Below, one piece after another: positions 11,179 through 57,519 of a stretch of DNA of 64,000 nt. This DNA comes from Alphaproteobacteria bacterium (lineage in GTDB: Bacteria; Pseudomonadota; Alphaproteobacteria; Micropepsales; Micropepsaceae). The number at the start of each line of letters is the position of its first letter. Position 1 is the stretch's first letter. The stretch covers positions 62,001 through 126,000 of the forward strand of contig JAGWMG010000003.1 of assembly GCA_028871795.1 (NCBI GenBank), written 5' to 3'. A program made the position numbers and the translations under genes. Under the pieces are notes generated by a model, which did no database searches, was not told where the DNA came from, and saw nothing but the letters and a program-made list of their open reading frames with translations.

Positions 11179-11191
11179 CCCGGCCCTTAGC

Positions 11192-11296: not shown

Positions 11297-11311
11297 CGGA
11301 AAGGGACGCAC

Positions 11312-12009: not shown

Positions 12010-12020
12010 GGAGACCGGCC

Positions 12021-12626: not shown

Positions 12627-12648
12627 GCCTTCATCCAATTTGAATTGC

Positions 12649-36391: not shown

Positions 36392-38137
36392 TCACTCCAA
36401 GTCCGGGTAAGGCCCCTTGCCGCCGCCAGCAATGAAGGCGTCGATGCGCTTCGTCAAGACCGGCAGCGGCACGGAGCCCAGTTGCAGCACCGTGTCGTGG
36501 AAGGCGCGGAGGTCGAATTTCGGCCCCAGCGCCTTTTCCGCCTTGGCGCGCGCCTCGCGGATCGCCATCTCGCCCAGATAATAGGACAGCGCCTGGCCGG
36601 GCCAGGTGATGTAGCGGTCCACTTCGGTTTCGATCTCGCGGTCGGGAAGCGCGGTGTAATCGCGCAGATATTGAATCGCCTGCGCCCGCGTCCAGCCTTG
36701 GCTGTGGATGCCGGTGTCGACGACCAGCCTTGCCGCGCGCCAGATCTGATAGCCGAGCATGCCGAAGCGCTCATAAGGCGTCTTGTACATGCCCATCTCC
36801 TGGCCGAGCCATTCGCAATAGACCGCCCAGCCTTCGCCATAGGCGGAGATATAGGTGTAGCGGCGGAAATCCGGCAGCGTCTTGTCCTCCATCGCCAGCG
36901 GAATCTGGAAGGCGTGGCCGGGCGCGGATTCGTGCAGCGTCAGCGCCGTCAGGCTGTAGAGCGGACGATGCGGCAAGTCGTAGGTGTTGAGAAGGTACAC
37001 GCCGGGCCCGCCGCGGCCCGCGGTGTAGAACGGCGCCATGTCGTCGGGCACCGGCTTGATGGCGAAACGGGTGCGCGGCAGCAGGCCGAAATACTGCGAG
37101 GCCTTGCCGTCGAACTCCTTGGCGATCCAGGCGGCGCGGTCGAGCAAATCCTGCGGCGTCTTGGCAGTGAACTGCGGGTCGCTGCGCAGGAAGGCGAGAA
37201 AGGCGGAAAAATCGCCCTTGAACCCGCTTTCCTGCATCGCGGCGATCATCTCAGCGTGCAGCTTGGCGACTTCGTCAACGCCGATCTTGTGGATGGCGTC
37301 GGGCGACAGATCGAGTGTGGTGTATTCGCGGATCTGCTGGCGGTAATACGCCTTTCCGTCCGGCAGAGCTTCGGCTGCCAACGTGGTGCGCGCGCCCGGC
37401 ACGTATTCCCCGTCCCAGAATTTCAACAGCTCCGCATAGGCCGGCTGCACCTCCTCGCGGATGACCTTCATGGCTTCGGCGCGCAGGCTTGCCTGTTCGG
37501 CGGGCGGAACGTTCGAGAGCATCTCCTTGAAAGGCGTGTAGAGCAGCGACTCTTCCGGCTTAGCCTGCGTCACCGCGGCGATCGAGGCGTCGCGGCCTTC
37601 GAGCGTTTGGCGCGGCGGCGTGAAACCGCGTTTCTCGCCCGCGCGCATCTCTTCGATCTGTTCGCGGAAATAGCGCGGGATGTCGCGCATCTGCGCGATC
37701 CAGCTCCTGTAGTCCGCCAGCGTGCGGAAGGGGCGGCGCGCGGTGTAGCCGATGTCGGTCCAAAAACTGGAATCGGAATTGGCCGGCATTTCGTAGGCGC
37801 GGAACTTCTGGTCGGCGATCAGGTTCGCGATCTGCGGCTTGTAGACGTCGTAATTCACCCGCTCCTTGGGCGAGAGCTTCGCGTAAGGGATGGCATCGAG
37901 CCGCTTCATCACCCGCTGCCAGTAAGCCAGCCGCGCGGCCTGCGCCGCCGCAGCGACCTTGGGCAGACGATCGACCACCGGCTTGGTGCCGTCCTGGTCG
38001 TCCGCGAACTGCGCCTCGCGCCATTTCCATTCCGCCGTGTAGATCGCGCGCAGCCGCGCGTCGGCGGTCTTTCCGGCCGCGTGAACAGGCACCATGGTCA
38101 GCAAAAGTGCGGCAACAATGGCCGCGGTCACCCGCAT
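36392..38137 (-). CDS. DUF885-family exported protein (putative metallopeptidase)
   Basis: A 581-residue protein with a signal peptide ending near VHAAGKT. The DUF885 family carries a zinc-peptidase-like HExxxGH motif, here HESAPGHAF, with a downstream glutamate region YGEGWAVYCEWLGQEMG. Members are exported and their substrates are not known. The start MRVTAA has GGAG at proper spacing; an ATG four codons upstream is less likely. Confidence 0.85.
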   Translation of the reverse strand: MRVTAAIVAALLLTMVPVHAAGKTADARLRAIYTAEWKWREAQFADDQDGTKPVVDRLPKVAAAAQAARLAYWQRVMKRLDAIPYAKLSPKERVNYDVYKPQIANLIADQKFRAYEMPANSDSSFWTDIGYTARRPFRTLADYRSWIAQMRDIPRYFREQIEEMRAGEKRGFTPPRQTLEGRDASIAAVTQAKPEESLLYTPFKEMLSNVPPAEQASLRAEAMKVIREEVQPAYAELLKFWDGEYVPGARTTLAAEALPDGKAYYRQQIREYTTLDLSPDAIHKIGVDEVAKLHAEMIAAMQESGFKGDFSAFLAFLRSDPQFTAKTPQDLLDRAAWIAKEFDGKASQYFGLLPRTRFAIKPVPDDMAPFYTAGRGGPGVYLLNTYDLPHRPLYSLTALTLHESAPGHAFQIPLAMEDKTLPDFRRYTYISAYGEGWAVYCEWLGQEMGMYKTPYERFGMLGYQIWRAARLVVDTGIHSQGWTRAQAIQYLRDYTALPDREIETEVDRYITWPGQALSYYLGEMAIREARAKAEKALGPKFDLRAFHDTVLQLGSVPLPVLTKRIDAFIAGGGKGPYPDLE

Positions 38138-40385: not shown

Positions 40386-42563
40386 TCATTCCCCCGGATG
40401 GTAGCTGCGTTCGATGTGCCCTTGGAGGTCCGAGGGATAGAAGTAGACCGGCCTCAGCTCGCCTCGCGCGTAGCGGACGGCCTCGTCGTCGAAGTGCGGC
40501 GACTTCGGATCGCCACTTTCCCCGCCCGCGGTCACCGCCAGCGCCCGTATCTTCGGCGCGAATTCGACCACCGCGACGAAGCTGTTGCCCGACGTGCCGT
40601 AATAGCGCCTGGTCCCCGGATAGCGGTGCGCGCCGAAGGAAGCGAGCGAGCCCCAGCGTGACGAGGTGAACGGTACGGGAATGCTTGGCCGGTCGTCGCC
40701 GAATGTCGGATCGACGGCGTCCGACACGCGCTGGAAGCGGTTGATGTCGCCCCAGGGCGTGCGCCAATTGCCGAAATCCTTTTCAAGCCGGTCGGAGGCT
40801 TCGGCCAATGCCTGAAGCTTCTGCGCAGGGGTTGCGCGGTCGGCCATGTAGTCATAGCTGTTCACGCCCGCTTCCTTGGCGGCGCGTGTCGTTTCGTCCC
40901 ACAACGTGTCGCCCCAGAACACCGCGAGCGACGTCGCCAGCGAATGGTCCGACCATTTGAAATCCCACTCCCGAAGCAGAGCGATCTGGTCCTTGAGCCG
41001 GGCCTTCAGCGGGTCGCCGGCGGGCATCGCGTCATAGGCCTGCACCAGACCGGGGATGAGACGGGCGAAGGCGGGCAGATACGGATCGAACGCCGCCGCT
41101 ATGAGCGATTCGAGCGTCCAATCCTTGTTGTCCGTCAGCAAGCGCGTGGCGTGGACACCGCGCGGGTTCTCGCCGGCCGTATCCATGTACTTCGGATAGT
41201 CCTTCCGCTTGGGGCTGTAGGGTCCCGCGGCCGAATAGGGCCAATCGTTGGTGTTGAAAATCCAGCCGTTGGGCGGATTCAACAGATGGGGCAACTCATC
41301 CAGCGCATGCAATCCCTTCCAGTCCGTGGCGGGGTCGGCGCCCTCCACCGGCTTGGTATAGTCAAAACGGTCGTCGCGCCTGGGCATGAACTGCGGGTGC
41401 AGATAGGCGATCTCGCCCTTGTCGTCCGCGAAGACGGTGTTGTTGGAGGAGTTGGCGCGCAGCTCCGCCACCTTCATGTAGGACGCATAATCGCCCGTCT
41501 TGGTGCGCAGATAGGACTGCTCCAGCGCCGCGACCGGCTGGTTCATCAGGGCGATGGCGATCCATTTGCCGCCTTCCTCACGGATGATCGGGCCGTGATG
41601 GGTGCTGTAGGTGGTAAAGCTCTTCACCGCCATGCCGCCGCCGGCCGTGCGATAGAAAACCTTGACGATCTTGACGCCCACGGGGCGCTCCTTCGCGCCA
41701 TAGCGGTAAGTGAATTTGCCATTCTTTTGGGAGACGGTCTCGGCGAACTCATCGACCGCATCTGCGCCGGTCGAGGTGTGCATCCACCCCACATGTTGGT
41801 TGAAGCCCTGGTAGACGAAGAACTGGCCCCAGGTCACCGCACCGTAGGCGTTGAGGCCTTCGTCACTCGTCATCTGCAGTTCCGAGCGGAAAAAAAACGA
41901 GGTGTGCGGGTTGATGAGCAGCAGGGCGTGGCCGTCCCTGGTGTCCGCCGGCGCGATGGCGATGCCGTTGGAACCGCCGGGTTCGTGGAAGACGAAGCCG
42001 CGCTCGTTATCGGTCATGCCGAATTGGCGCTTGCCGTAGAAGGCCTCGAGCTGGCTCAAGGGCACCCGCTCGATGTCGCCGCCGATGCTGCCCTCGGTGA
42101 AGCTGAGCGCCATCCAGGGTTCGAACCGCTTTATCACGCGCGGCGTCACGCCCGGGTGGGTGGCAAGATAATAGTTCAGCCCGTCCGCCCAGGCATTCAT
42201 CAGCGCCTTGAGCCATGCCGGACTCTTGGCGTAGTCCGCCTTCAGAACCTGCGGATCGATGAACAGCTTTTGCCGCAGATCGCTATAGATCGCCTTCTCG
42301 CCGTCCGCCTCGGCGTTGCGCCCAAGCGCCGTGATGTAGTTGGTTTCCACCCGGTTGAAATCATCCTCGGCCTGGGCATAGGCCATGCCGAACACGGCAT
42401 CGGCGTCGGTCCTGCCGTGAACATGGGCGATGCCCCAGTCGTCGCGAACGATCCGAACCTGCTGGGCTTCCTGTTTCCAGCGGGCAGCGTCGACGGCCGC
42501 CAGTGCCTGCGACGGGGCACCGGCGGCAACGAACAGAAGTGCAAGAATGCCGATCAGCCGCAA
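40386..42563 (-). CDS. Penicillin/AHL acylase-family N-terminal nucleophile hydrolase
   Basis: A 725-residue exported precursor. After a signal peptide (APSQALA) the alpha chain has DDWGIAHVHGRTDADAVFGMAYAQ, then the probable autocleavage point before serine in HEPGGSNGIAIAP, with GHALLLINPHT following. The family hydrolyses amides such as penicillins, acyl-homoserine lactones or aculeacin-like lipids. Substrate cannot be chosen from sequence. It lies back to back with the Asp-box cluster. Confidence 0.85.
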   Translation of the reverse strand: MRLIGILALLFVAAGAPSQALAAVDAARWKQEAQQVRIVRDDWGIAHVHGRTDADAVFGMAYAQAEDDFNRVETNYITALGRNAEADGEKAIYSDLRQKLFIDPQVLKADYAKSPAWLKALMNAWADGLNYYLATHPGVTPRVIKRFEPWMALSFTEGSIGGDIERVPLSQLEAFYGKRQFGMTDNERGFVFHEPGGSNGIAIAPADTRDGHALLLINPHTSFFFRSELQMTSDEGLNAYGAVTWGQFFVYQGFNQHVGWMHTSTGADAVDEFAETVSQKNGKFTYRYGAKERPVGVKIVKVFYRTAGGGMAVKSFTTYSTHHGPIIREEGGKWIAIALMNQPVAALEQSYLRTKTGDYASYMKVAELRANSSNNTVFADDKGEIAYLHPQFMPRRDDRFDYTKPVEGADPATDWKGLHALDELPHLLNPPNGWIFNTNDWPYSAAGPYSPKRKDYPKYMDTAGENPRGVHATRLLTDNKDWTLESLIAAAFDPYLPAFARLIPGLVQAYDAMPAGDPLKARLKDQIALLREWDFKWSDHSLATSLAVFWGDTLWDETTRAAKEAGVNSYDYMADRATPAQKLQALAEASDRLEKDFGNWRTPWGDINRFQRVSDAVDPTFGDDRPSIPVPFTSSRWGSLASFGAHRYPGTRRYYGTSGNSFVAVVEFAPKIRALAVTAGGESGDPKSPHFDDEAVRYARGELRPVYFYPSDLQGHIERSYHPGE

Positions 42564-42692
42564 GCCAAGCCCCCTGTACTGCCCATCGAGAAGTACACGC
42601 GATCGAATCGTCGTTCAATGTAGCGTTCCCGGAACTTGAGCAATTCGGCGCAGTGCGCGATACAGAGCGCCACGCTCAAACTGGGGTGGCCC

Positions 42693-45600
42693 GTGCGACT
42701 GCGCCGTCTTGCCGTGTTCATTCTCGGAATTTCCACGGCTCTCGGCGCGCAGGCGGCGGTCGATCCATCCCTGTATCAGGGCTTGCATTGGCGGCTGATC
42801 GGACCGTTTCGCGGCGGGCGCGTGCTGGCGGTGACGGGAATCGCGGGCGACAGCCGCCATTTCTATTTCGGCGCGGTCGACGGCGGCGCGTGGGCGACGC
42901 AGGACGCCGGGCGCACCTGGCAGCCGATCTTCGACGGCGAACCGGCGGGCTCGATCGGCGACTTGGCCCTGGCGCCGTCCGCCCCGAACACGATCTATGT
43001 CGGTACGGGCGAGGCGGACATGCGCTCGGACATCGCCCATGGCGACGGCATGTACAAGTCCACGGACGCCGGCAGGCATTGGAGCCGCATCGGGCTTGCG
43101 GACAGCCGGCAGATCGGCCGCATCCTGGTGGATCCGCGCAATCCCGACGTCGTATTCGCCGCCGCGCTGGGGCATGCCTACGGCCCCAATGCGCAACGCG
43201 GCGTGTTCCGCTCCAGCGACGGCGGCAAGAGCTGGAGCAAAGTGCTGTTCACCAACGCCGACACCGGGGCGATCGATCTCGCCTTCAAGCCCGGCGAGCC
43301 GGACACGATCTACGCCGCGTTGTGGCAGACCCGGCGCCCGCCGTGGAGCGTCTATCCGCCTTCGAACGGACCCGGCAGCGGCCTCTATGTGTCGCATGAC
43401 GGCGGCAGCCACTGGAGTCGGATAAGAGGCAACGGCTTTCCGGCGCATCCCGGCCGCATCGGCATCGCGCCGGCGCCGAGCCGGCCGGACCGCGTCTACG
43501 CGCTGATCGATGGGCCGCAGGACGAAGGCGGTCTGTATCGTTCCGACGACGGCGGCGCGCATTGGCTGCGCATTTCCAGCGACCAGCGCATCTGGCAGCG
43601 CGGCTGGTACTTCTGCCGGCTGAGCGTCGATCCAAAGAATGCCGACCGCCTTTATGTGATGAATACGATCGTGTTGCGCTCCGATGACGGCGGCAGGCAT
43701 TTCATCGCCTTGAAAGGCGACCCCACCGGGGACGATTTCCACCAGCTGTGGATCGACCCGACCGATCCCGGCCGGCAGATTCTCGGCAGCGATCAGGGCG
43801 CCTCGATCACCCTCAACGGCGGCAAGACCTGGAGCAGCTGGTACAACCAGCCCACCGCGCAAATCTATCATGTCAGCACCGACAACCGCTTTCCATACTG
43901 GGTCTACGGGGCGCAGCAGGATTCCGGTGCGGTCGCCTTGCCGAGCCGCACGGACGGCGGCGACGGCATCACCATGGAGCAATTCCGCGAGGTCACGGCC
44001 GGCGGCGAAAGCGGAATGATCGCGCCCGATCCCGATCACCCGGACATCGTCTATGGCGGCACGGTCGACAAACTCGATATGCGCACCGGCCAGACCCGCG
44101 AGGTCGATCCGACCCTGGCCTATCCCACGATCCAATATCGAGGTGCCTGGACGCTACCGCTGACGTTTTCCAAGCGCGGCAGGAAGCTCCTGTATTTCGC
44201 CAATCAACGTCTCTTCCGCACGGCGGACGGCGGCAACCGCTGGGTGCCGATCAGCCCGGACCTGACGCGCCCCGACGCGGGCATACCGTCCGGTCTCGAT
44301 GCACCGACGGCAGCCGACGACGATCATGGCGGCCAACGCCGCGGCGTCATCTATACCATAGCGCCTTCGCCATTGCGCGCGCAGGCGCTATGGGTCGGGA
44401 CAGACGACGGGCTCGTCTGGCGCACCGAGGACGGCGGCGCGCACTGGCGCGAGATCACGCCGAAGGCGTTGACGCCGTGGTCGAAAGTCGCCGCGATCGA
44501 GCTGTCCCGTTTCGATGCCAACGTCGGTTATCTGGCGATCGATCGCCATCGTCTCGACGACGACGCGCCCTATATCTACCGCACGCGGGACGGCGGGCGA
44601 AGCTGGGCTCGTATCGACGCCGGCATCCCCAAGGACGGCTTCGTCAACGTGGTGCGAGAAGACCCGGTGCGCAAAGGTCTGCTCTACGCCGGCACCGAAA
44701 AGGGCATAGTTGTGTCGTTCGACGACGGCGCCCGTTGGCAATCGCTGCAACAAAACCTGCCGATGACCTCGGTGCGCGACATCGACGTGCATGGCGACGA
44801 CCTGGTGATCGCCACGCATGGCCGCGGTTTCTGGATCATGGACGATGTCACGGCGCTGCGGCAGGCGGAACCGGCGCAGACGGGTAGTGCCGTCCTGTTC
44901 CGGCCGGCGGTCGCGCTTCGCCTGCGCCGGCCGCAGTTCACCGGCACGCCCTTTCCGAAAGACGAACCGATGGCCGCCAACCCGCCGGACGGCGCCATCA
45001 TCGACTATGCGCTGCCGAACGCGGTCAAGACCCCTGTGACGCTGACCGTGTTCGATGCGCACCATCACAAGGTCCGCGGCTTCAGCAGTGCGGATAAGAC
45101 AACTGCGCCGGATCCGCTCAAGATCAAGTTCGCGCCGGAATGGATCCCGTCCCCGACGATTCTGTCGGCGGCGCCCGGCATGCATCGCATCGTCTGGGAT
45201 CTGCACTATCCCAAACCGCCGGCGCCGGACGCGGCGCAGACAAACGGCGTCTGGGCGCCGCCCGGCCGTTACACGGTCGAACTCAGCGTCGCCGGGCGCA
45301 GCTACAGCCAACCGCTGCTGGTCAAGGCGGACCCTCGAGTAACGGTCCCCGAAGCGGCTTTGCGCCGCGAATTCGTCCTGGCGCGAAGGGTGGAAGAATT
45401 GTCGTCGCGGGCCTATGCCGCGAGCGCCGAGGCAACCAAACTGCTTCAGGCCCTCGAGGCGCGAATGGCGCACGCCGACGCGATGCGCAAACAGATTTCC
45501 GCCTTGATGGCCAAGGTAACCGATCTCAACGGCGTCCCGTTGTATCCCGATCCGCGCGGCTGGCCGGGGCGCCCGCCCCGCCGCCTCGACAGCCTGCGCG

Positions 45601-45803
45601 CCCTGTCAACCGACCTGGCGAAACTCGAAACGGCCGTCGACGGCGCCGACGCCAATCCGAGCGCGGACGCCTTGCAGTCTTATGCGAAGATTTCGCACAT
45701 GTTGGCGGCCACTCTGCAGGCCTGGCAACAATTGAAGCATCGCGACTTGGCGACACTCAACGCCGGTCTGACGGCAACCGGAGCCAAGCCGATCGCGTTG
45801 TGA
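42693..45803 (+). CDS. Exported Asp-box/VPS10-like beta-propeller protein 1
   Basis: About 1036 residues from the GTG at 42693, which leads straight into a signal peptide (LGAQAAVDPS). The body holds about ten Asp-box motifs of the form S-x-D-G-G-x-x-W (for example SSDGGKSWSK, SHDGGSHWSR, TEDGGAHWRE, TRDGGRSWAR), which make a sortilin/VPS10- or sialidase-like propeller. A beta-sandwich-like C-terminal part and a helical tail follow. The ligand is unknown. It is paralogous to the protein at 47208. The TTG at 42636 is an alternative start. Confidence 0.85.
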   Translation: MRLRRLAVFILGISTALGAQAAVDPSLYQGLHWRLIGPFRGGRVLAVTGIAGDSRHFYFGAVDGGAWATQDAGRTWQPIFDGEPAGSIGDLALAPSAPNTIYVGTGEADMRSDIAHGDGMYKSTDAGRHWSRIGLADSRQIGRILVDPRNPDVVFAAALGHAYGPNAQRGVFRSSDGGKSWSKVLFTNADTGAIDLAFKPGEPDTIYAALWQTRRPPWSVYPPSNGPGSGLYVSHDGGSHWSRIRGNGFPAHPGRIGIAPAPSRPDRVYALIDGPQDEGGLYRSDDGGAHWLRISSDQRIWQRGWYFCRLSVDPKNADRLYVMNTIVLRSDDGGRHFIALKGDPTGDDFHQLWIDPTDPGRQILGSDQGASITLNGGKTWSSWYNQPTAQIYHVSTDNRFPYWVYGAQQDSGAVALPSRTDGGDGITMEQFREVTAGGESGMIAPDPDHPDIVYGGTVDKLDMRTGQTREVDPTLAYPTIQYRGAWTLPLTFSKRGRKLLYFANQRLFRTADGGNRWVPISPDLTRPDAGIPSGLDAPTAADDDHGGQRRGVIYTIAPSPLRAQALWVGTDDGLVWRTEDGGAHWREITPKALTPWSKVAAIELSRFDANVGYLAIDRHRLDDDAPYIYRTRDGGRSWARIDAGIPKDGFVNVVREDPVRKGLLYAGTEKGIVVSFDDGARWQSLQQNLPMTSVRDIDVHGDDLVIATHGRGFWIMDDVTALRQAEPAQTGSAVLFRPAVALRLRRPQFTGTPFPKDEPMAANPPDGAIIDYALPNAVKTPVTLTVFDAHHHKVRGFSSADKTTAPDPLKIKFAPEWIPSPTILSAAPGMHRIVWDLHYPKPPAPDAAQTNGVWAPPGRYTVELSVAGRSYSQPLLVKADPRVTVPEAALRREFVLARRVEELSSRAYAASAEATKLLQALEARMAHADAMRKQISALMAKVTDLNGVPLYPDPRGWPGRPPRRLDSLRALSTDLAKLETAVDGADANPSADALQSYAKISHMLAATLQAWQQLKHRDLATLNAGLTATGAKPIAL

Positions 45804-45860
45804 AGGCCCAGCCCTCAGCTAAAGCACGGCAGGCAGTTTCCCCGCGAGCATGTCAGCGGC

Positions 45861-46233
45861 ATGGCGGCCCGCATCCTGTTCAAACTCACGGGACGCGGCG
45901 CAAAGATCGAAGGAACGGAAGACCCGGACCTGCTGCGGAAGGAATACGAACTGATGATGACGGGCTTGTCCGCCGGCGCGGGCACCGGCGGCGCCGCGCA
46001 GACGGATAAAGCCGAAAGCGCCGCGGTCTTCCGCGACCTGTTGGATCGCAGGGACCGCTTCATTGCGCGGCATTGACAAGACATTGCAGGTCGGCGAGAC
46101 GGGTATTCTGTTTCTGGGGGCATTGCACCACGCGACCCAAATGCTTCCCGACACGATCCAGGCGACATCCTTGAGCAAATTCCTGCGCGCCGGGGCGCCG
46201 ACGGGACCGATGCCCTCTAACCGGTCGATATAA
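45861..46233 (+). pseudogene. Frameshifted conserved hypothetical gene remnant
   Basis: An open frame from 45861 (EGTEDPDLLRKEYELMMTG) runs to FRDLLDRRDRFIARH and a TGA at 46074. One base further, the next frame continues with KTLQVGETGILFLGALHHAT up to a stop at 46231. The joined reading looks like a continuous protein, so a frameshift is likely. No family name was recognised. It sits between the two Asp-box genes. Confidence 0.4.
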
Positions 46234-46375
46234 TTGACATGAAAGGCGACGGCCCCGTACACCACTTCACACGAATTTGTGTCTTCGTTGGTGTTGACGC
46301 GGCCATGTCCAAGAACCGTTAATCGGAGATCGCTCGCCCCTTTCGAACGAGGGGCGTTGCCCAGGGGATATTCGA

Positions 46376-47203
46376 ATGAAACGACGCCTGGCCCAAAGCG
46401 CGCTTGTGCTGGCCGCGCTCACCTGTTGTGCCCCAGCCTTGGCCCAAACCGCTGACGAACTCGTCGCCAAGAATCTTTCGGCGCGGGGCGGAGCCGAAAA
46501 GCTCGCTGCGATCGGCTCGTTGTCGCTCAAGGGAGAGATGCGCGCGCCCGGCGATTTCAAACTCGCGTTTTCCGAATTGCGCCAGCGGCTCGACCCCAAG
46601 ACCGGCACATGCACGGTGCGCATCGAGGCAACGATCCAGGGCCTGACACTCATTCAGGCCTATGACGGCAAAAGCGGCTGGCGCGTCAATCCGTTCGAAG
46701 GCCGCAAGGATCCGGAAAAGATGGGCTCGGACGAATCGCGGGCGCTCGCCGACGAAGCTTCGATCGACGGCGCCTTGCTGGCGGCACATGCCATGGGCTC
46801 GAAAGTGGAATATCTCGGCCGGGAAGACGTCGACGGCACCGACGCCTTCGAGTTGCGCGTCAGCCAGACCGACGGCGATGTCTTCACCTATTTTCTCGAT
46901 CCGGACAGCTATCTCGAGATCAAGATTCTCGAGCGGCGCACGATTCGCGGCTCCGAACAGGAAACCGAGTATGAACTCGGGGATTATGAGCGTGTCGGTG
47001 GCGTCTATTTCCCATTCTCGATCGCTTCGGGGCCGAAGAACTCCCGGGACAAGCAAATCCTCACCATCGACAGCGGCGACGCCAATGTGGCGGTTCCTCC
47101 GGGCACTTTTGACTTTCCCGCGACAGGGCCCGCCAAGCCGTCCGGCAACGCGCACGCGAAAGTGCCCGCCAAGTCTCCCGCTCCGCATAGAAAGAGGCAC
47201 TAA
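46376..47203 (+). CDS. LolA-like exported lipoprotein-sorting family protein
   Basis: A 275-residue exported protein with signal peptide ending in PALAQTADE. It resembles the periplasmic lipoprotein/lipid-binding fold of the LolA/LppX type: ELVAKNLSARGGAEKLAAIG, then a long beta-rich part with YDGKSGWRVNPFEGRKDPEK and YYLDPDSYLE-like YFLDPDSYLEIKI. True LolA acts on lipoproteins, but this longer form with a basic C-terminal tail (PAPHRKRH) probably has another role. It is followed after 4 bases by the second Asp-box gene. Confidence 0.6.
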   Translation: MKRRLAQSALVLAALTCCAPALAQTADELVAKNLSARGGAEKLAAIGSLSLKGEMRAPGDFKLAFSELRQRLDPKTGTCTVRIEATIQGLTLIQAYDGKSGWRVNPFEGRKDPEKMGSDESRALADEASIDGALLAAHAMGSKVEYLGREDVDGTDAFELRVSQTDGDVFTYFLDPDSYLEIKILERRTIRGSEQETEYELGDYERVGGVYFPFSIASGPKNSRDKQILTIDSGDANVAVPPGTFDFPATGPAKPSGNAHAKVPAKSPAPHRKRH

Positions 47204-47207
47204 TCCG

Positions 47208-50200
47208 ATGTCGCGCACTCTTCATGGCTTCGCCTTCGCCGTGTTCGGTCTCGCGCTCACTCTGAGCGGCGCTTCGGCCACCGGCTTCGACTCGACGGCC
47301 GTTTCCGGACTGGGCGCCCGTAATATCGGTTCGGCCGCGATGAGCGGACGCATTGCCGCTATCGCCGCCCGCCAGGAGCCGGACGGAAAGGTCACGCTCT
47401 TCGTCGGCGCCGCTTCCGGCGGCGTGTGGAAGAGCACCGACGGAGGCACCACTTTCAAGCCCGTTTTCGACCGGGAACCGGTGCAATCCGTCGGCGCGAT
47501 CGCGCTGGATCCGTCGCATCCCAAGGTTGTCTGGGTCGGCACCGGCGAGAGCTGGACGCGCAATTCGGTCTCGATCGGCAACGGCATCTACAAATCGACC
47601 GACGGCGGCGAAACCTGGACGAACATGGGCCTGCCGGAGTCGGAGCGCATCGCCCGCATCATCGTGAATCCGAAGGACGGCAACGTCGTCTATGCCTGCG
47701 TCCCGGGAAAGCTGTGGAGCGACAGCGCCGATCGCGGACTGTACAAGACCGTCGATGGCGGCAAGTCCTGGTCGCTCATCCTGAAGGGATCGAATCTTTC
47801 GACGGGCTGCTCGTCCGTCACGCTCAATCCCAAGAACCCCGAGGAGCTGATGGCGGGCTTGTGGGATTTCCGCCGCAAAGGCTGGACCTTCCGCTCCGGC
47901 GGCGACGGACCCGACGCGCCGTCGGGCAGCGCGCTCTATCGTTCGGCGGACGGCGGCAAGAGCTGGACCGAGCTGTCGGCAGCGAACAGCAAAGGCTTGC
48001 CGGCTCGGCCCTGGGGCCGCATCGAGGTCGTCTACGCGCCTTCGAACGCGAAACGCGTCTATGCCGCGATCGAGAATGTGCGCACCGCGCTCTATGTCTC
48101 TGACGACGGCGGCACCACTTGGCAAGAGCGCGACCGCAGCCAGCGTATGGTCTGGCGGCCATTCTACTTCCAGCGTCTCGTCGTCGATCCGACAAATGCC
48201 GATCGTCTCTTCAAGATGAACCTCGCCCTCATCGCCTCGGAGGACGGCGGCAAGAGTTTCACCGACGCCTCGGGCGGCAGCCACGGCGATTGGCACGACA
48301 TCTGGATCAATCCGAAGAACCCCAAGCACGTTATCGGCGGCGACGACGGCGGCTTGTGGATCTCCTATGACGGCGGCGTGAAATGGTGGAAGGGCGGCAA
48401 TCTGCCGATCAGCCAGTTCTATCATGTGAGCGTCGACGACAAAGACCCCTATCAGGTCTACGGCGGGCTTCAGGACAATGCCTGTTGGACCGGCGACAGC
48501 GCCTATCCGGGCGGCATCGGCAACGATCGATGGGAAAATTTCTGCGGCGGCGACGGCTTCTTCATGTTCTCCGATCCGGCAGACCCACGTTACCTTTATG
48601 CGGAGACACAAGGGGGATTCATCCTGCGCGCCGACCGGCAGACCTACGCTTGGCGCGACATCCAGCCCAAGGCCGGTTACAAGGAGAAGCTGCGCTTCAA
48701 CTGGAACACGCCGATTGCGTTCTCCCCCAACGAAAAGGGCACCATCTACATCGGCGCGCAATTCCTGTTCCGTTCGCGCGATCACGGCGTCACCTGGCAG
48801 CGGATTTCTCCGGACCTGACGACGAACGATCCGGAGAAGCAGAAGCAGGAAGAATCCGGCGGAATCACGGTCGACAACTCCGCCGCCGAGATGCACACCA
48901 CGATCTACGCCATTTCGGAAAGCCCGAAGAATGCTGGCGTGATCTGGGTAGGAACCGACGACGGCAATGTGCAAGTGACACGCGACGGCGCGAAGACCTG
49001 GACCAACGTCGTCGGCAATGCTGGCGTGCCCAAGGCGAGTTGGGTGAATTGGGTGGAGGCGAGCCGCTTCGACGAAGCCACCGCGTATGTCGCGTTCGAT
49101 CGCCACACCTTCGGCGACATGAACGCCTACGTCTACCGCACGCGGGACTACGGCAAGACCTGGCAGGCGCTGATAACGCCGCAGACGCCGGGCGTGCGCG
49201 GCTATGCCCACGTCGTCAAGGAGGATCCGAAAAACCCGAACATCCTGTTCGTGGGAACGGAGTTCGGACTGTACGTGTCAATCGACGGCGGCTCCACTTG
49301 GGCGGCGTTCCGCCCCAACGATTTTCCGGCGGTCGCGGTGCGCGACATGGCGTTCCAGACGCGCGACGATGCGCTGGTCTTGGCCACCCATGGCCGCGGC
49401 ATCTGGATCATCGACGACCTTTCGCCCATCCGGGCGCTCACGCCGGCGACGCTGGAGTCCGAGGTGGCGCTCATTCCGTCCGCTCCGCAGCAGCAGCGAA
49501 TCGAAGGCAATGGCGGATGGGCGAACGGCGATGCCGCCTATACCGGCGAGAATCCGCCGGATGGTGTCGTCATCAGCTACTATCAGAAGGCGCGGCACGT
49601 CATCGGCCGGCTCAAACTTGAAATCTTGAATGCGAAAGGCGAGGTCATCGCCACGCTGCCGGCCTCCCCGCGCAAAGGCCTCAACCGCGTGGTCTGGTCC
49701 ATGCGCGACGAGGCGCCGGTGACGCCGCCGGCCGCGACGATCGCATTCGGCTCGACCCGGGGTCCGCGCTTCCCGCCGGACACCTATACGGTGCGTCTGA
49801 CAAAGGCGGGCAAGGTTTACACGATGCCGTTGACGGTCGTTCTCGACCGCCGCGCGACCTACTCGCTCGCCGACAAGGTTGCCCAGTATCAAGCGGCCAA
49901 GCGCGTCTCGGGCCTGTTTCGCCGTATGACCAGCCTTGTCGGCTCGATCATGCAAGTGCGCGACGAGGCCGGCGGAATCGCGGCCAAGCTGCCGGCAGGC
50001 GACGCCTTGAAGGCAGAGCTTCGCGGGATTGCGGATCATGCAGACGCGCTCCGCAAAGAAGTCGTTGCCACCAAAGAGGGCGGCGCGATCACCGGCGAGG
50101 AGCGGCTGCGCGAGCACATGGACTACGTCTATGGCGCGATCACGTCGGTCGAAGACCGTCCCACCGCCTATCAGATCGCGCGCATCGACGTCCTCGAACG

Positions 50201-50429
50201 CGAACTCAAAGAGGTCGAGGACGCGTTCGGCGCGTTGATGAAAAATGAAGTCGGCTCGGCCAATTCCAAACTGAAGGCGAAAGGCTTGCCTGAAATCGTC
50301 GTAAAGGATACTTCGATGCCGCCGAGCGGCGGGGGCGGAGATGCAAAAACGCTGGCGTCAAGCCTCATCGGGCTTCGCCTCTATGACTTCACGGGCGTGC
50401 GGCAGGGACGGCGCACGGAGCGGGACTAG
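47208..50429 (+). CDS. Exported Asp-box/VPS10-like beta-propeller protein 2
   Basis: A 1073-residue protein with a signal peptide ending in GASATGFDS. About eleven Asp-box motifs are visible (STDGGETWTN, TVDGGKSWSL, SADGGKSWTE, SDDGGTTWQE, SIDGGSTWAA). It resembles protein 1 throughout, including QFYHVSVDDKDPYQVYGGLQ against QIYHVSTDNRFPYWVYGAQQ. The C-terminus has a beta-sandwich and a helical tail. The frame is open upstream into the LolA-like gene, but the ATG at 47208 starts the signal peptide. Confidence 0.88.
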   Translation: MSRTLHGFAFAVFGLALTLSGASATGFDSTAVSGLGARNIGSAAMSGRIAAIAARQEPDGKVTLFVGAASGGVWKSTDGGTTFKPVFDREPVQSVGAIALDPSHPKVVWVGTGESWTRNSVSIGNGIYKSTDGGETWTNMGLPESERIARIIVNPKDGNVVYACVPGKLWSDSADRGLYKTVDGGKSWSLILKGSNLSTGCSSVTLNPKNPEELMAGLWDFRRKGWTFRSGGDGPDAPSGSALYRSADGGKSWTELSAANSKGLPARPWGRIEVVYAPSNAKRVYAAIENVRTALYVSDDGGTTWQERDRSQRMVWRPFYFQRLVVDPTNADRLFKMNLALIASEDGGKSFTDASGGSHGDWHDIWINPKNPKHVIGGDDGGLWISYDGGVKWWKGGNLPISQFYHVSVDDKDPYQVYGGLQDNACWTGDSAYPGGIGNDRWENFCGGDGFFMFSDPADPRYLYAETQGGFILRADRQTYAWRDIQPKAGYKEKLRFNWNTPIAFSPNEKGTIYIGAQFLFRSRDHGVTWQRISPDLTTNDPEKQKQEESGGITVDNSAAEMHTTIYAISESPKNAGVIWVGTDDGNVQVTRDGAKTWTNVVGNAGVPKASWVNWVEASRFDEATAYVAFDRHTFGDMNAYVYRTRDYGKTWQALITPQTPGVRGYAHVVKEDPKNPNILFVGTEFGLYVSIDGGSTWAAFRPNDFPAVAVRDMAFQTRDDALVLATHGRGIWIIDDLSPIRALTPATLESEVALIPSAPQQQRIEGNGGWANGDAAYTGENPPDGVVISYYQKARHVIGRLKLEILNAKGEVIATLPASPRKGLNRVVWSMRDEAPVTPPAATIAFGSTRGPRFPPDTYTVRLTKAGKVYTMPLTVVLDRRATYSLADKVAQYQAAKRVSGLFRRMTSLVGSIMQVRDEAGGIAAKLPAGDALKAELRGIADHADALRKEVVATKEGGAITGEERLREHMDYVYGAITSVEDRPTAYQIARIDVLERELKEVEDAFGALMKNEVGSANSKLKAKGLPEIVVKDTSMPPSGGGGDAKTLASSLIGLRLYDFTGVRQGRRTERD

Positions 50430-50454
50430 GCCGCGGCCGATCGGTCCGAGGGTT

Positions 50455-52524
50455 GTGCGAAACGGTTTTTTTCTCGTATTCGCGTTCGGATTCCTCGGGA
50501 CCGTCGAAGCGTCCGCCCAGACGGGCGCAGGTCTCGAACGGGTTGTCGTTACGGCGACGCGCGTGCCGCAATCCGTCGATCAGGTTCCCGCCGACATCTC
50601 GGTCGTTTCCGGTGCCGAGATGAGCGATCGTGATGCGTGGACCTTGTCCGCCTCCTTGAACCTCGTTCCGGGCGTCGAGGCGCCGTCAGGCGGCGACGCC
50701 GGCCCGTCAAGCGCCGTACCGTCGTTCTGGGGCCTGCACGAATTCGACGCGTTTTTGCTGGTTGTGGACGACGTCCCGTGGGGAGGGGCCTTCAATCCGG
50801 CGATCACAACGCTGGACCTCACGGACGTCGAGCGCATCGAGGTGTTGAAAGGCGCGGCCCCCGTCATGTACGGCGCCACGTCCTTTGTCGGCGTGGTGCA
50901 CGTTCTCCACTATCCGGCCGGCGAAGCGGCCAACGAGGCCGATGTGGCATACGGCAGCTTCGGCTCCGCGCGCGGCTCGGCGTCCTTCGTGCTGCCGCCA
51001 TGGGGCGGAGCCCGGCAGTCGCTCGCCATCGACGGGCGGAGTCTCGGCTTCGCCGACAAGCGCGAAGCGGTCGCGGACGGCAAATTTCTGTATCGGGGCG
51101 CGCTCGACATAGGCAGGGGCACGCTGCGCCTCGACGCGGATGCCACGCTGGTCCGCGACGTGCCGCCCAGTCCCGTCATCCGCGTCGGAACGGCGCTGAC
51201 GAAGCTCACGCCGCTCGATGCCAATTTCAATCCCGCCGACGCCCGCATCGACGAGAACAAATATCATGTCGCGCTCGGCTATTCGCGGCCGACGGATTGG
51301 GGCTCATGGGACACGCTCCTCTCCTATGCGCATTCCGACATCGTCGATGTTCGCGCTTTTCTGCATCCCGATCTGAGCGGCGCCGCCGACACGCAGAACC
51401 AGCATCGCCTCATCAACGACGCCTATGGCGATACGCATCTCACCAATCCGCTTTCCGGCGACACGACGCTGATCGTCGGCGCCGATCTACTCTATGGACT
51501 CGACCGCCAGACGACGCGAAACGGCAATAGCGCCTACACCGTGCCGCTCGATGGTTCGGCGCTGCCGCCGCCGGCGGCGAAACTGCCCGTCGACGAAATC
51601 GGCACGGTGGACGACCGGCGCATATTTGCGGGGCAATACGCACAGCTCGATTGGAAACCCGGCGAGCGGTGGAATGTGATCGGCGGAATCCGTCTCAACG
51701 AGACCGCCGAGCACAAGCGTTCCTCCGATTCCACGTTTTTGCCGCCACAGCTTTCGGCCGAAAGCGCCAGCCGGACCGTGGTCAGACTGAGCGAAACGGC
51801 CGGCGCGAGTTACCGCGCCTGGGCGCAAGACGGCGACGAAGTCGTGTTCTATGGCGACTATCGCAACGCCTTCAAGCCGGCGGCTGTCGATTTCGGACCC
51901 GACTATACGCCGCAGGTCCTCCTCCCCGAAACGGCGCAAAGTTATGAAGCCGGCATCAAAGGCGCTGCCGCCGGCGGCCTCCTGACGTATCAGGCCGAAT
52001 TGTTCCTCCAGAATTTCCAGAATCTGGCGGTCGCAACGAACTCCGGAGAACTCGCCAACGCGGGCAAGGAGCAGCTGAAGGGTATCGATCTCGAAACACG
52101 CTATCAGGTGACGCCCGATCTCGCGCTGGCGGGCAATTTTGCGTATCACGACGCCCGTTTCACGCGGTATCTGTTTTTCGACGGCGTTTCCAATGTCGAT
52201 GTCGCAGGCAAGCAATTGACGCTGGCCCCAAAGGTTCTCGCCTCGGCGGGGATTCTGTACGTTCCGCAGCAGGGTTTGCGCGCGACGCTCGTGGCTAACT
52301 ACGTGGGGCGCCGTTATCTCGACGAAAAAAACACCGCGCCGGCCGGCGCCTACGCGACGCTCGACATGACGCTCGGCTATCGCATCGGCCGCTACGCGAT
52401 TTCGCTCGAAGAAAACAATCTGACGAACGAGCGGCCGCCGGTCACCGCGAGTGAATTCGGCAGCGAGTCGTTCTATCTGCTGCCCGCTCGCGCCTTCTGG
52501 CTGCGATTGAGTTCCTCGCTCTAA
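50455..52524 (+). CDS. TonB-dependent outer-membrane receptor
   Basis: A 689-residue receptor starting with GTG at 50455 (GAGG upstream) and a signal peptide (EASAQTGAG). The TonB box region ERVVVTATRVPQSVDQVP is followed by a plug domain with DVERIEVLKGAAPVMYGA and a 22-strand barrel ending FWLRLSSSL. The aromatic C-terminal strand is typical for Bam-inserted proteins. Ligand unknown. It lies 25 bases after the second Asp-box gene and is probably in the same transcript. Confidence 0.92.
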   Translation: MRNGFFLVFAFGFLGTVEASAQTGAGLERVVVTATRVPQSVDQVPADISVVSGAEMSDRDAWTLSASLNLVPGVEAPSGGDAGPSSAVPSFWGLHEFDAFLLVVDDVPWGGAFNPAITTLDLTDVERIEVLKGAAPVMYGATSFVGVVHVLHYPAGEAANEADVAYGSFGSARGSASFVLPPWGGARQSLAIDGRSLGFADKREAVADGKFLYRGALDIGRGTLRLDADATLVRDVPPSPVIRVGTALTKLTPLDANFNPADARIDENKYHVALGYSRPTDWGSWDTLLSYAHSDIVDVRAFLHPDLSGAADTQNQHRLINDAYGDTHLTNPLSGDTTLIVGADLLYGLDRQTTRNGNSAYTVPLDGSALPPPAAKLPVDEIGTVDDRRIFAGQYAQLDWKPGERWNVIGGIRLNETAEHKRSSDSTFLPPQLSAESASRTVVRLSETAGASYRAWAQDGDEVVFYGDYRNAFKPAAVDFGPDYTPQVLLPETAQSYEAGIKGAAAGGLLTYQAELFLQNFQNLAVATNSGELANAGKEQLKGIDLETRYQVTPDLALAGNFAYHDARFTRYLFFDGVSNVDVAGKQLTLAPKVLASAGILYVPQQGLRATLVANYVGRRYLDEKNTAPAGAYATLDMTLGYRIGRYAISLEENNLTNERPPVTASEFGSESFYLLPARAFWLRLSSSL

Positions 52525-52545
52525 CGGTTCGCCTTCTGAGAAACC

Positions 52546-53604
52546 TCACGGTTTCACGCCATAGCCCGCATAGGTCCGCTCGATGTTCGGATCGCGTTTC
52601 TTGGCTTCCGCAATGTCGGCCTTGCCGTTGCGCTGGTCGCCGGTGCGCAGCCGCGACAAGCCCAGCACGTACAGCGAGTTCGCCAGAGCGGGCGCCTCGC
52701 CCAGCGCCGCATGGGCGTCGGCGATCGCGGCGGCGTAGTTCCCCATGCGGAAATACACCAGCGCGCGCGAATCGATGGCCGCGAAAGAGTCCGGCTGGAG
52801 CTTCAGGGCCCGGTTGCAGTCGGCGAGCGCGGCATCGAGTTCGTGCCCCCACACCGCGCGCGCCCAGCAGCGGCTGTTGAGATTGTCGGCGTCTGGCAGG
52901 TTGCCGACCGCGACGTCGAGATCGGCGATGGCGCGTTGGTATTGGCCCGCCTCGCCATAAGCCGTGCCGCGGCTGGCCAGGATCTGCAGGGCCTTCGGCT
53001 CCAGGCGGAGCGCCGCATCGAAATCGCGGATTGCCGAATCGTACTGGCCGAGCCGGATGTAGACGCGGCCGCGGCCATACAACGCGGTCGCATCGTGCGG
53101 GCTCAGGCGCAGCGCGGCGTCGAAATCCTTGACCGCCAGCGCGCACTGACCCAGGAAGCAAGTGATCGTCCCGCGATTGCGTAACGCCGTGACGTCGCCG
53201 GGTTGCAGCTTCAGCGCCATGTCGTATTCCGTCAGCGCGCGCCGATCCTGGCCCAGCATGTAATAGGCATAGCCGCGATTGTTGTGGGCGGCGGAAGAGT
53301 CCGGCACCTGCAGCAGCGCCGCGTTGTAATCGTCGAGCGCGCGCCGGTATTGGCCCAGTTCGGTGTAGGCGTTGCCGCGGCTGACATGGGCCCAGGACAG
53401 ATCGGCGGTCGGTGAGGTCTCCGCCCGGATGACCGCGGTGCAGGCGTCGATGCGCGCCTGCCCCGGCGAATGCTGGCATTGTGCGTCGACGTCGGGGGGT
53501 GCGGACAGGATCAGGTAATACCCCACGCCGACGCACGCCGCAGTGCCGATCGCCACGGTCGTGATCGACGTCAGAGCAACGAACAGAACGCGCCCGGCTC
53601 TCAT
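52546..53604 (-). CDS. Tetratricopeptide-repeat membrane-anchored protein
   Basis: A 352-residue protein with one N-terminal membrane helix (residues 5-32) and then about seven TPR units, each with the GxAYxxLGxxxxAxxDYxxAL pattern (for example GNAYTELGQYRRALDDYNAA, RGYAYYMLGQDRRALTEYDM). TPR arrays bind partner proteins. The start at 53604 has GGGGAG in front. No specific role can be given. It ends 21 bases from the convergent receptor gene. Confidence 0.85.
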   Translation of the reverse strand: MRAGRVLFVALTSITTVAIGTAACVGVGYYLILSAPPDVDAQCQHSPGQARIDACTAVIRAETSPTADLSWAHVSRGNAYTELGQYRRALDDYNAALLQVPDSSAAHNNRGYAYYMLGQDRRALTEYDMALKLQPGDVTALRNRGTITCFLGQCALAVKDFDAALRLSPHDATALYGRGRVYIRLGQYDSAIRDFDAALRLEPKALQILASRGTAYGEAGQYQRAIADLDVAVGNLPDADNLNSRCWARAVWGHELDAALADCNRALKLQPDSFAAIDSRALVYFRMGNYAAAIADAHAALGEAPALANSLYVLGLSRLRTGDQRNGKADIAEAKKRDPNIERTYAGYGVKP

Positions 53605-53749: not shown

Positions 53750-55171
53750 TCAATTCGATACCGGCACCATGAGGGTCGTGTTCTTGTGGGACGAGTCCAA
53801 GATGGACGGCGACTTCGGCGTCATGTCGATCAGGTTCCAGTCGTTCGGATCGAAGGTGCGATGGGTCGGCGTCTGGACCGGATAACCATGAACATCCTGT
53901 TGGCTGTCGATGATCCAACCGCGGCCCGAGGAGACATTGGCGAGAACGCGCTCGTCGGTATAGTCGCGGTCCCAGGGGCGGGCGCCGACATCGAGGAGCA
54001 GCGAGGTTTCGACCTCGTCCGCCGGAATCGGCTTTACGTAAGGCGGCGAGATCGGTGGCGTCTTCATCTCGACGATCTTCGCCGTCGAAGTCGTGTAGCG
54101 GCCCAACATCGGCAACGGCCTGCCGATCTGATCGACCGCGATGTTGTCCTTGCCGTAGTACTCAAGATCGCCGGCGCCGCCGATTTCCAGAAAGGCAAGC
54201 GGCATCACCGTCGATACGCCGGCGCGCAGGACATTGCCGACCGCCGTCAGCTCTCCGGCTTGAAAGGGGTGGCCGAGCCATTCATAGGCGACCAGGTTGT
54301 AGTGAACGGCGCGCTGGCCCGGATCGTAGATCAGGTTGTTGACCATTGCGGCGTGCACCCCGCCCTTGAACAGCGGGCTGCGCTCGTAATTGTGGACGAA
54401 GATGTCGCGCGCGATGAGAATATCGGTCGTGTTGTCGTGGATCAGCGCGCCCTTGGAATGCTCGATCTTCCAATGGGTCGAGCGGCTCAAGGACTCGGAG
54501 ATGAGATCGTTGGAAACCGTGACCCGGTGCGAAGTGTGCTGCCGCCATTCGTCCGGCGTGTTTCCGTCGAAGCGGGGACCGGATACGGCGAAGTTCTTGT
54601 TGGTCGCCCAACTCACGGAGCAATGATCGATAATGACGTCATGGGCGCCTTCGTCGGTCCTGATTCCGTCCGTCGAATAGCCCCCGGCTTTTGGCTCGCC
54701 CGCGTCGCCCGGCCGGATGCGCAGGTGCTGCACAATCACGTCATGGGTCACGACTGCCATGCTTTCCCCGCGGATCAGCGTGATGCCCGGCGAGGGAGCC
54801 GTCTGTCCGGCGATCGTAAGATAGGGTTCGGTGATCCTGACGTTACGCTTGTTGAGATCGATCACGCCGCCCACCTCGAACACGATGATGCGCGGCCCCT
54901 TGACGTTGAGCGCTTCCAGGAACGATCCCGGTCCCTCGGCGTTCAACGTCGTGACTTTGATGATCTGCCCGCCACGGCCGCCAGGCGTGGTGGCGGCCCA
55001 GCCCATGGCGCCGGGAAAGGCCAGAAGCGGATGCGATGCAGCAGCCGCAGATTTTGGAACCGGCTTGTGCCTTGCCGCGTGTCTCGTCGCCGCCGCGGTG
55101 TCGGCCGGCACGGCCATCAAGGCGGTGCAAAGGATGACGTTCAAAGCGATGGCAAATCGGCGCACCTTCAT
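53750..55171 (-). CDS. Exported pectate-lyase-like right-handed beta-helix protein
   Basis: A 473-residue exported protein (signal peptide to about residue 26). The repeats typical of a parallel beta-helix include IKVTTLNAEGPGSFLEAL, IIVFEVGGVIDL, LTIAGQTAPSPGITLI, VIVQHLRIRPGD and VIIDHCSVSWATN. These match the polysaccharide lyase 1-like group. The catalytic residues cannot be fixed by eye, so lyase activity is probable rather than shown. An AGGAGGG stretch fixes the start at 55171. Confidence 0.8.
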   Translation of the reverse strand: MKVRRFAIALNVILCTALMAVPADTAAATRHAARHKPVPKSAAAASHPLLAFPGAMGWAATTPGGRGGQIIKVTTLNAEGPGSFLEALNVKGPRIIVFEVGGVIDLNKRNVRITEPYLTIAGQTAPSPGITLIRGESMAVVTHDVIVQHLRIRPGDAGEPKAGGYSTDGIRTDEGAHDVIIDHCSVSWATNKNFAVSGPRFDGNTPDEWRQHTSHRVTVSNDLISESLSRSTHWKIEHSKGALIHDNTTDILIARDIFVHNYERSPLFKGGVHAAMVNNLIYDPGQRAVHYNLVAYEWLGHPFQAGELTAVGNVLRAGVSTVMPLAFLEIGGAGDLEYYGKDNIAVDQIGRPLPMLGRYTTSTAKIVEMKTPPISPPYVKPIPADEVETSLLLDVGARPWDRDYTDERVLANVSSGRGWIIDSQQDVHGYPVQTPTHRTFDPNDWNLIDMTPKSPSILDSSHKNTTLMVPVSN

Positions 55172-55315
55172 TCCCTCCTGCATTGATCGGTCGCGGTCTG
55201 GCGGCTGGAATTTGTCCCCGCCGAAGGTCCTTGGTTGACGCAAAAATGACACCGGTTACCTTAAGATGCAAGACCCCGCGCGGCAATGGGCCCAAGGACG
55301 TTTCAAAGCCGCGCT

Positions 55316-56895: not shown

Positions 56896-57300
56896 TTACT
56901 TCTGCGTCCAGCCTCCGCCGACCGGCTTGTAGTACTGGCCCGGCGGCATCTTGGCGAAAAGCTGCGCCGCCGTCGCTTCTCCAGCCGCTTCCGCGCTCAC
57001 GCCGGTTTTCGCGGCCGCCGCATCGTAGGCCTGCTTGCGTCCGGCGTTGATGGCCTCGACCGCCGCGGTCGTTGCGGAATCCGCCGAGCCGTGGACGAAG
57101 CCGAGGAAGCCGTCGCCCTGCTCGCCCACCGTGCCGCTCGCCTTCGCCGCGTCCACCGTCGCCTTCGCGCCGGCGAGATCGACGGCAAATGCCGGCTGCA
57201 CCGGCGCCATCAGTCCCACACCGGCGCCAAGCAGGAGCAGCAACCCAACCGCTGCGGCCGGAATGCGCCCGGCAAAAATCTTTCCACGAGAGCCAACCAT
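56896..57300 (-). CDS. ydbL: YdbL-family periplasmic protein (DUF1318)
   Basis: A 134-residue exported protein with a signal peptide (AFAVDLAGAK). The DUF1318 body reads DAAKASGTVGEQGDGFLGFV, the YdbL signature. In E. coli ydbL belongs to the ydbH-ynbE-ydbL operon linked to phospholipid transport to the outer membrane. The same order is kept here, which strongly supports the assignment. Confidence 0.88.
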   Translation of the reverse strand: MVGSRGKIFAGRIPAAAVGLLLLLGAGVGLMAPVQPAFAVDLAGAKATVDAAKASGTVGEQGDGFLGFVHGSADSATTAAVEAINAGRKQAYDAAAAKTGVSAEAAGEATAAQLFAKMPPGQYYKPVGGGWTQK

Positions 57301-57315
57301 GAAAATTCCTCCGGA

Positions 57316-57501
57316 TTAGAACAGGTTCGGATTTTGTTTAATCACCGATTTGACTTCGTTGTCCAACCTGACGCGGATGTCGGCGTCCAGCTTGGCGTAG
57401 ATGTTGATCGGCGCGACTTCGATGCGGATGGTGGGCGTGCAAGCACCAAGCGACAGCGCCGTCACGCCGATGGCGAAGAGCAAGTTTCCAGAGCCTTTCA
57501 T
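57316..57501 (-). CDS. ynbE: YnbE-like lipoprotein
   Basis: A 61-residue lipoprotein with lipobox SLGAC and a short body (TPTIRIEVAPINIYAKLDAD). E. coli YnbE is of the same size and forms a beta-stranded bridge with YdbH. The ATG at 57501 follows AGGAG by five bases. It lies between ydbH and ydbL, completing the operon. Confidence 0.85.
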   Translation of the reverse strand: MKGSGNLLFAIGVTALSLGACTPTIRIEVAPINIYAKLDADIRVRLDNEVKSVIKQNPNLF

Positions 57502-57519
57502 AGGCACTCCTTTTTGCTG

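Follow-up and report, generated by a model that had tools for sequence, protein, structure and literature searches.

What do two very large exported propeller proteins do beside a LolA-like protein and a TonB-dependent receptor (TBDR)? The question is raised by a locus in a 64,000-nucleotide stretch of DNA (the window) from an alphaproteobacterium of the family Micropepsaceae (assembly GCA_028871795.1, contig JAGWMG010000003.1, positions 62,001–126,000). On its forward strand the locus encodes the propeller PropA (positions 42693..45803; 1036 residues, GTG start), the LolA-like protein (46376..47203; 275 residues, with a Sec-type signal), the propeller PropB (47208..50429; 1073 residues) and the TBDR (50455..52524; 689 residues, GTG start). 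We show that the genes for the LolA-like protein and PropB form a pair that has been kept together across phyla. The window brings two modules together: this core pair, held together by linkage, and a genus-level module of the TBDR and propeller paralogues of the types A, C and D, for which co-occurrence and linkage were both observed.

A LolA-like gene paired with a propeller gene across phyla

The gene coordinates bear out the arrangement given in a preliminary description of this DNA, with the LolA-like gene between the two propeller genes and the receptor gene 25 bp after PropB. The LolA-like gene and PropB are separated by 4 bp, and because of this short gap they are probably co-transcribed. 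The spacer between PropA and the LolA-like gene is 572 bp long.

Scanning genome contigs with a profile of a 16-member paralogue alignment (A1) returned at least 591 relatives of the propellers, from which the best 80 loci were kept; because the best matches were kept, this sample is biased towards orthogroup B, the group of PropB. In 62 of the 80 loci (61, plus L099 by tblastn) the gene directly upstream, in the same orientation, is LolA-like; the figure is 62 of 77 when three loci with no upstream gene within the record (L096, L160 and L162) are excluded. Loci without the LolA-like gene score below 700 bits to PropB, the exceptions being L115 (858 bits) and L096. Judging by the record titles, the pair occurs in Proteobacteria, Acidobacteria, Verrucomicrobia, Planctomycetota, Bacteroidetes and others. 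No third conserved partner emerged, every other family being confined to at most 11 of the 80 loci. Two loci from Acidobacteria gp2 (L100 and L103) carry PropA-like propellers a few kilobases upstream of the pair.

The linkage was also analysed genome-wide for 23 of 25 selected loci, 20 of them LolA-linked and three chosen as unlinked. In all 20 LolA-linked genomes the genome's best LolA match adjoins its best PropB match, with gaps of at most 355 bp, and 19 of these genomes contain additional propeller matches. The best matches are not adjacent in the three genomes chosen for the missing link. The number of propeller-profile matches across the 23 genomes ranges from 1 to 12, fragments included, and 20 genomes (G383–G402) each have 4–12 on the same count. 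For 58 loci and the window, the pairwise distances of the LolA-like proteins track those of the PropB proteins (r 0.94, uncorrected for species relatedness).

Pfam includes both protein families; the pair itself and the genus-specific receptor cluster are apparently undescribed. The open-licence literature in PMC yielded no account of a LolA–propeller pair and no function for bacterial sortilin/BNR proteins of about 1,000 residues.

Predicted folds of the two partners

As the preliminary description had it, PropA and PropB are Asp-box proteins with a similar C-terminal part. The pattern [ST]x[DN]xGxx[WFY] occurs 11 times in PropA and 10 times in PropB, compared with means of 0.10 and 0.16 and maxima of 2 and 3 in 1000 shuffles of each protein. 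The two proteins are 36% identical over 976 columns, an alignment that partly spans the region after the propellers. Both exceed the Pfam cut-offs for Sortilin-Vps10 and BNR; the Sortilin-Vps10 scores (99.1 and 118.6 bits, cut-off 33) cover partial stretches. The nearest NCBIfam entry is the F510_1955 family glycosylhydrolase (NF045728), with 146.9 and 148.9 bits, short of its cut-off of 175.

The AlphaFold2 model of PropB (60-sequence alignment; predicted local distance difference test (pLDDT) 90.5, predicted template modelling score 0.89) consists of a tandem propeller of the GH74 type at residues of about 25–740, a beta region with strands within 787–879, and a helical C-terminal part at 887–1024. 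Structural comparison rests on the residues before 744. Residues 25–743 align to GH74 entries over 592–614 residues, with Z 27.7–29.9 and root-mean-square deviations of 5.2–6.5, and GH74-type entries occupy all of the first 20 Foldseek ranks. Single seven-bladed WD40 propellers reach similar Z (27–29.6) over only 280–310 residues, and the GH74 tandem is favoured because of its greater aligned length. The model shares its tandem Asp-box propellers with GH74 xyloglucanases and OXG-RCBH (6p2m, 2cn2, 6mgj and 1sqj), from which it differs by the extra beta region and the helical C-terminal part. PropB is thus predicted to have a GH74-type tandem-propeller fold and not a sortilin fold. The earlier characterisation of these proteins as VPS10-like holds for the Pfam match but not for the predicted fold of PropB. 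In sortilin/VPS10 proteins a cysteine-rich 10CC domain follows one ten-bladed propeller, whereas PropB contains four cysteines and PropA one, too few for such a domain. Foldseek TM scores are 0.13–0.21 for sortilin and 0.31–0.59 for GH74 entries. We therefore rejected a sortilin-like ten-bladed receptor.

Given this scaffold, PropB and its paralogues could be hydrolases or lyases that act on a polymer through a different active site, with the LolA-like protein as an accessory or inhibitor. GH74 structures give the best fold match over the full length, and certain polar residues are strongly conserved, a pattern that would also fit an enzyme: H359, D361, Q403, Y405, D410, Q422, D423, N424, D449 and E561 are invariant in all 60 PropB homologues and H363 is kept in at least 90% of them, and D361, H363, Q403, Y405, D410, Q422 and D423 are invariant in the A1 paralogues as well. 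The first-blade Asp of GH74 enzymes, however, argues against this reading. This residue, located by profile alignment to 2cn2 (Asp) and 2cn3 (Ala), is one that we take to be the catalytic Asp. It corresponds to Ala in all 60 PropB homologues (alignment A3) and is never Asp in the 16 A1 paralogues (Ala in seven, Val in six, Thr in two, Ser in one), and on these grounds we rejected membership among the GH74 enzymes. In addition, 2cn3 and 6mgl (titled a D60A mutant) outscore 2cn2 and 6mgj. The profile alignments covered this first-blade position; the second catalytic Asp of OXG-RCBH is D465 (title of 2ebs). The scores below the NCBIfam glycosylhydrolase cut-off also count against an enzyme, and an enzymatic role would leave unexplained why orthogroup B retains a LolA-fold partner. 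We consider such an activity unlikely.

The LolA-like protein of the window itself has no Pfam or NCBIfam match at E 0.01; at the same threshold, 47 of 63 aligned family members match PF17131 (LolA_like). Its AlphaFold2 model (63-sequence alignment, pLDDT 90.6) scores Z 8.5–19.2 against structures of LolA, LolB and LolA-like proteins, including 3bk5 (19.2), the DUF1329 protein 4z48 (18.0) and LolA3 of Porphyromonas gingivalis (9tp6, 17.8), and so a LolA fold is predicted. Searched against the PDB sequences, the family profile matched only 9tp6, and that distantly (E 3.7e-8, 36 bits); it matched none of the classic LolA chains at E 1. LolA3 of Bacteroidota, which includes Fjoh_0605 of Flavobacterium johnsoniae, is represented by an entry that is both the sole PDB sequence match and a top fold match. 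One report states that LolB is barely bound by P. gingivalis LolA3, to which it ascribes “a separate function” (PMC13103446). Gliding and amylase secretion of F. johnsoniae are described as intact after loss of lolA3 (PMC11885536). The main texts of these two papers contain none of the terms sortilin, VPS10 and propeller. The Lys-rich C-terminal tail described for F. johnsoniae LolA3 (PMC11885536) was not seen in the few flavobacterial family members examined.

Weaker relatives of the LolA-like protein form part of larger proteins. One is joined to an M16 peptidase in a flavobacterial genome (L180:31-2115). Others combine the domain with an aspartyl protease and a PDZ domain (L076:1441-3309, L077:1465-3342 and L078:1426-3342, all in genomes of the genus from which the window comes).

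The receptor, its genus and the location of the proteins

The TBDR matches the Plug (62.4 bits) and TonB-dependent beta-barrel (121.7 bits) families above their Pfam cut-offs. It reached none of the listed NCBIfam cut-offs for receptors of known ligand (siderophore, B12, haem), the best being TIGR01783 with 126.5 against 223.5 bits; its nearest PDB sequences are 9rvq (a TonB-dependent receptor) and 3qlb (the enantio-pyochelin receptor).

Of 60 genomes of the genus, the source genome included, 12 carry an orthologue of the TBDR (57–100% identical) and 15 carry large propellers. Both are found together in 10 (Fisher p 2.2e-6, from a test that ignores the relatedness of the genomes). In seven of the 12 (G000, G004, G013, G022, G026, G034 and G067) propeller genes stand no more than 10 kb from the receptor gene, in varying orders: C–TBDR–A, A|TBDR|D|C, divergent C|TBDR, and LolA–B–TBDR. 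These seven linkages are not seven independent events, as G026 and G067 are close and share the same order. The LolA-like gene, PropB and the receptor follow one another on one strand, with the receptor directly after the pair, in the window genome and in G034. No propeller was detected near the TBDR by tblastn in the remaining five genomes (G003, G020, G031, G064 and G069), where the available stretches reach 10 kb on at most one side of the receptor and the contig ends about 0.6 kb (G020), 1.1 kb (G069) or 3.8 kb (G064) from the receptor. Among 299 genomes of the phylum, the only orthologue at E 1e-70 was that of the source genome. The TBDR is thus a genus-level component, so far seen only in this genus. 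A different TBDR-like gene, recognised only by a purpose-built hidden Markov model (HMM), lies beside a C-type propeller in G004 (contig C141).

The propellers of the genus fall into several groups. A tree of 31 rows, one of them from a different genome of the class and the other 30 from the genus, resolved four orthogroups (A–D), each with 100/100 support; PropA falls in orthogroup A, a clade of seven rows, and PropB in orthogroup B. The source genome has four propeller loci, with A and B in the window and the others on contigs C7 and C21. The C21 copy belongs to orthogroup D. The C7 copy (L008:6894-9905, G000:C7) is split by one in-frame TAG and is either a pseudogene or an assembly error; it was left out of the tree and, from its position and likeness, probably belongs to orthogroup C.

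Outside the genus, receptors are not a regular companion of the pair. We sorted the proteins encoded immediately next to 61 pairs, 112 in all once L116:7591-8820 (the remainder of a split propeller) had been excluded, into Pfam families. The largest is DUF72 with 11 members, followed by MacB/FtsX and further sortilin/BNR proteins with four each. No TBDR, MMPL or RND family with two or more members appeared among the top 25 of 188 neighbour families, a range in which single-member families are partly hidden. A first screen with a purpose-built iterated HMM found receptors in eight of the 80 loci; Pfam removed L099, leaving TBDR domains confirmed in at least seven (L107, L109, L120, L139, L159, L160 and L171) and near the pair in two, L107 and L109. 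These counts are lower bounds, because the HMM missed a receptor-like outer-membrane protein (OMP_b-brl_4 and CarboxypepD_reg) that adjoins the pair in L105. We consequently rejected the TBDR as a partner conserved with the pair across phyla. In L109 (positions 3165-13180, Silanimonas) a propeller and a TBDR are followed by the LolA-like gene and PropB; this TBDR gave no BLASTP match to the window TBDR at E 1e-3.

With regard to location, the N-termini of the propellers mostly carry Sec-type signals. A loose lipobox pattern was found in three of 79 relatives (L104, L145 and L159), a count that includes some rows in which the N-terminus was not recovered (e.g., L098, L102 and L155). None of six Bacteroidota PropB members scanned has a sorting domain of the type IX secretion system (T9SS) at E 0.001, although such domains were detectable in three of the 112 pair neighbours. 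One of the six shows a weak PorZ match (21 bits), and an acidobacterial member has a sub-cut-off match to the sorting domain at residues 775–871. In one Bacteroidetes locus the pair has as its neighbour a distinct BNR protein that carries a T9SS sorting tail (L113:5229-7892). As Sec signals without a lipobox or T9SS domain are most simply read as periplasmic, PropB and the LolA-like protein are most likely both soluble and periplasmic.

These results bear on the suggestion, made in the preliminary description, that the locus serves to capture a ligand at the cell surface and take it up. In such a unit the propellers would pass the ligand to the TBDR as SusD does to SusC. The check proposed there, the co-occurrence of propellers with TonB receptors, came out positively within the genus, where the two are linked in several arrangements and the pair and receptor share one strand in two genomes; across the phylum, with the receptor in one of 299 genomes, it did not, and the pair is conserved beyond the genus without it. 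The proposed surface location finds no support: no anchor was seen in the propellers, and canonical LolA is described as a carrier within the periplasm (PMC11885536). A surface-exposed unit is therefore decidedly unlikely.

The penicillin-amidase-family acylase (PF01804; 40386..42563, reverse strand), which the preliminary description had drawn into the unit, is a real gene, and beyond it lies a gene for a DUF885 protein (36392-38137, reverse strand; 524 bits). Within the spacer between PropA and the LolA-like gene is an open reading frame of 71 codons (45861..46076, forward strand), a doubtful gene with coding-like codon use and no Pfam match. All three were rejected as members of the unit, as none has a tblastn match above 60 bits in 42 loci from the genus and class, 35 of which contain propellers; a penicillin amidase stands beside the pair elsewhere in one of the 112 neighbours. 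A scan of positions 42500–52700 was uninformative, with no promoter found and terminator-like sites at the level of shuffled sequence. Further downstream, all on the reverse strand, are a homologue of PelZ-like pectate lyase (53750-55252; 361.9 bits against a cut-off of 840, no Pfam match) and, consecutively within 56896-60309, genes for YdbH (57520-60309), a YnbE-like lipoprotein (57316-57501, slightly under the cut-off) and a DUF1318 protein (56896-57300), which we take to be YdbL. The last three are intermembrane phospholipid transport genes.

Proposed working and comparison with known systems

Based on these observations, we tentatively favour, with somewhat less than even confidence, a reading that infers both ligand and mechanism: the LolA–PropB core would act in the periplasm on an amphiphilic or polymeric ligand, and the TBDR would be the gate through which this genus imports it. 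PropB, with its predicted GH74 fold and replaced catalytic Asp, would bind a large or amphiphilic ligand in the cleft between its propellers, and the LolA-like protein would shield or ferry the hydrophobic portion of that ligand, a role already proposed for LolA-superfamily proteins whose genes accompany those of YCF48 or PSII-assembly-factor type in loci for hydrocarbons and terpenes. The TBDR may admit the ligand, which the periplasmic propellers and the LolA-like protein would then receive or process; this role is suggested by the position of the receptor gene directly 3′ of the pair on the same strand in the window genome and G034.

Several observations weigh against this proposal. Beyond the genus the pair has no conserved transporter or receptor, unlike the Ame-type precedent discussed below. 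Within it, the pair is present in only three of the 60 genomes, the source genome included. The association of receptor and propellers, besides the relatedness that the Fisher test ignores, is incomplete in both directions: the TBDR occurs without propellers in G031 (67% complete) and G069 (99% complete), and propellers occur without the TBDR in five of 15 genomes (G005, G023, G029, G072 and G078). Finally, the fusion of LolA-like domains to peptidases points to another role and would fit the processing of peptides or lipoproteins. Very unlikely, in our view, is that the pair maintains the envelope as a periplasmic unit that chaperones or processes lipoproteins or peptides, with the TBDR an accidental neighbour fixed by operon take-over: the peptidase fusions and the described failure of P. 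gingivalis LolA3 to bind LolB appreciably would agree with it, but the patchy distribution of the pair in the genus argues against housekeeping, and so, provided that F. johnsoniae LolA3 belongs to this family, does the loss of lolA3 there, which spared gliding and amylase secretion.

A bolder version of the periplasmic-handling proposal, which we regard as rather doubtful, would make the pair an undescribed two-protein pathway that spans several phyla: a propeller of GH74 fold, itself non-catalytic, would join with a LolA-fold carrier of its own in moving or processing a single class of amphiphiles, and in this genus the pathway would have been wired to its own TonB receptor and multiplied into the paralogues A–D. 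Large bacterial sortilin/BNR proteins are numerous, and the LolA-fold partner of one orthogroup across phyla offers a testable handle on them. Named carriers of the pair include Tahibacter, Robiginitalea and Aquimarina, and the source genus adds a candidate receptor, so that the cluster is a concrete lead on the role of these common propeller proteins. For at least some of the LolA paralogues that work independently of LolB, the pair also points to a possible role.

The closest precedents combine similar components. As described in the respective reports, the monoterpene locus AmeABCD encodes AmeB (LolA superfamily, DUF1329), AmeC (COG4447, related to photosystem II (PSII) assembly factors) and an RND transporter (PMC6394551), and a “nanopod” cluster comprises a DUF1329 protein, a YCF48-related protein and an MMPL transporter (PMC13101534). 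Both loci thus place a LolA-superfamily gene beside a gene of the YCF48 or PSII-assembly-factor type, as in the LolA–PropB pair, and a DUF1329 protein (4z48) is a near fold match of the LolA-like model. In Pseudomonas putida, the DUF1329 protein PP_0766 is reported to be needed for the use of Tween20 together with the periplasmic protein PP_2018 and the transporter PP_2019 (PMC10866462); the tie of PP_0765/0766 to PP_2018/2019 is genetic, and PP_2018 is described there only as a periplasmic protein. The differences are equally clear. AmeC has 316 residues and PropB about 1,070, and the Ame-type loci include an RND or MMPL pump, whereas the LolA–PropB pair has no conserved pump and, in this genus, a TonB receptor. 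The pair may therefore work much as the DUF1329/YCF48 loci do, with a far larger propeller and no conserved pump, and with a TonB receptor that this genus would have added.

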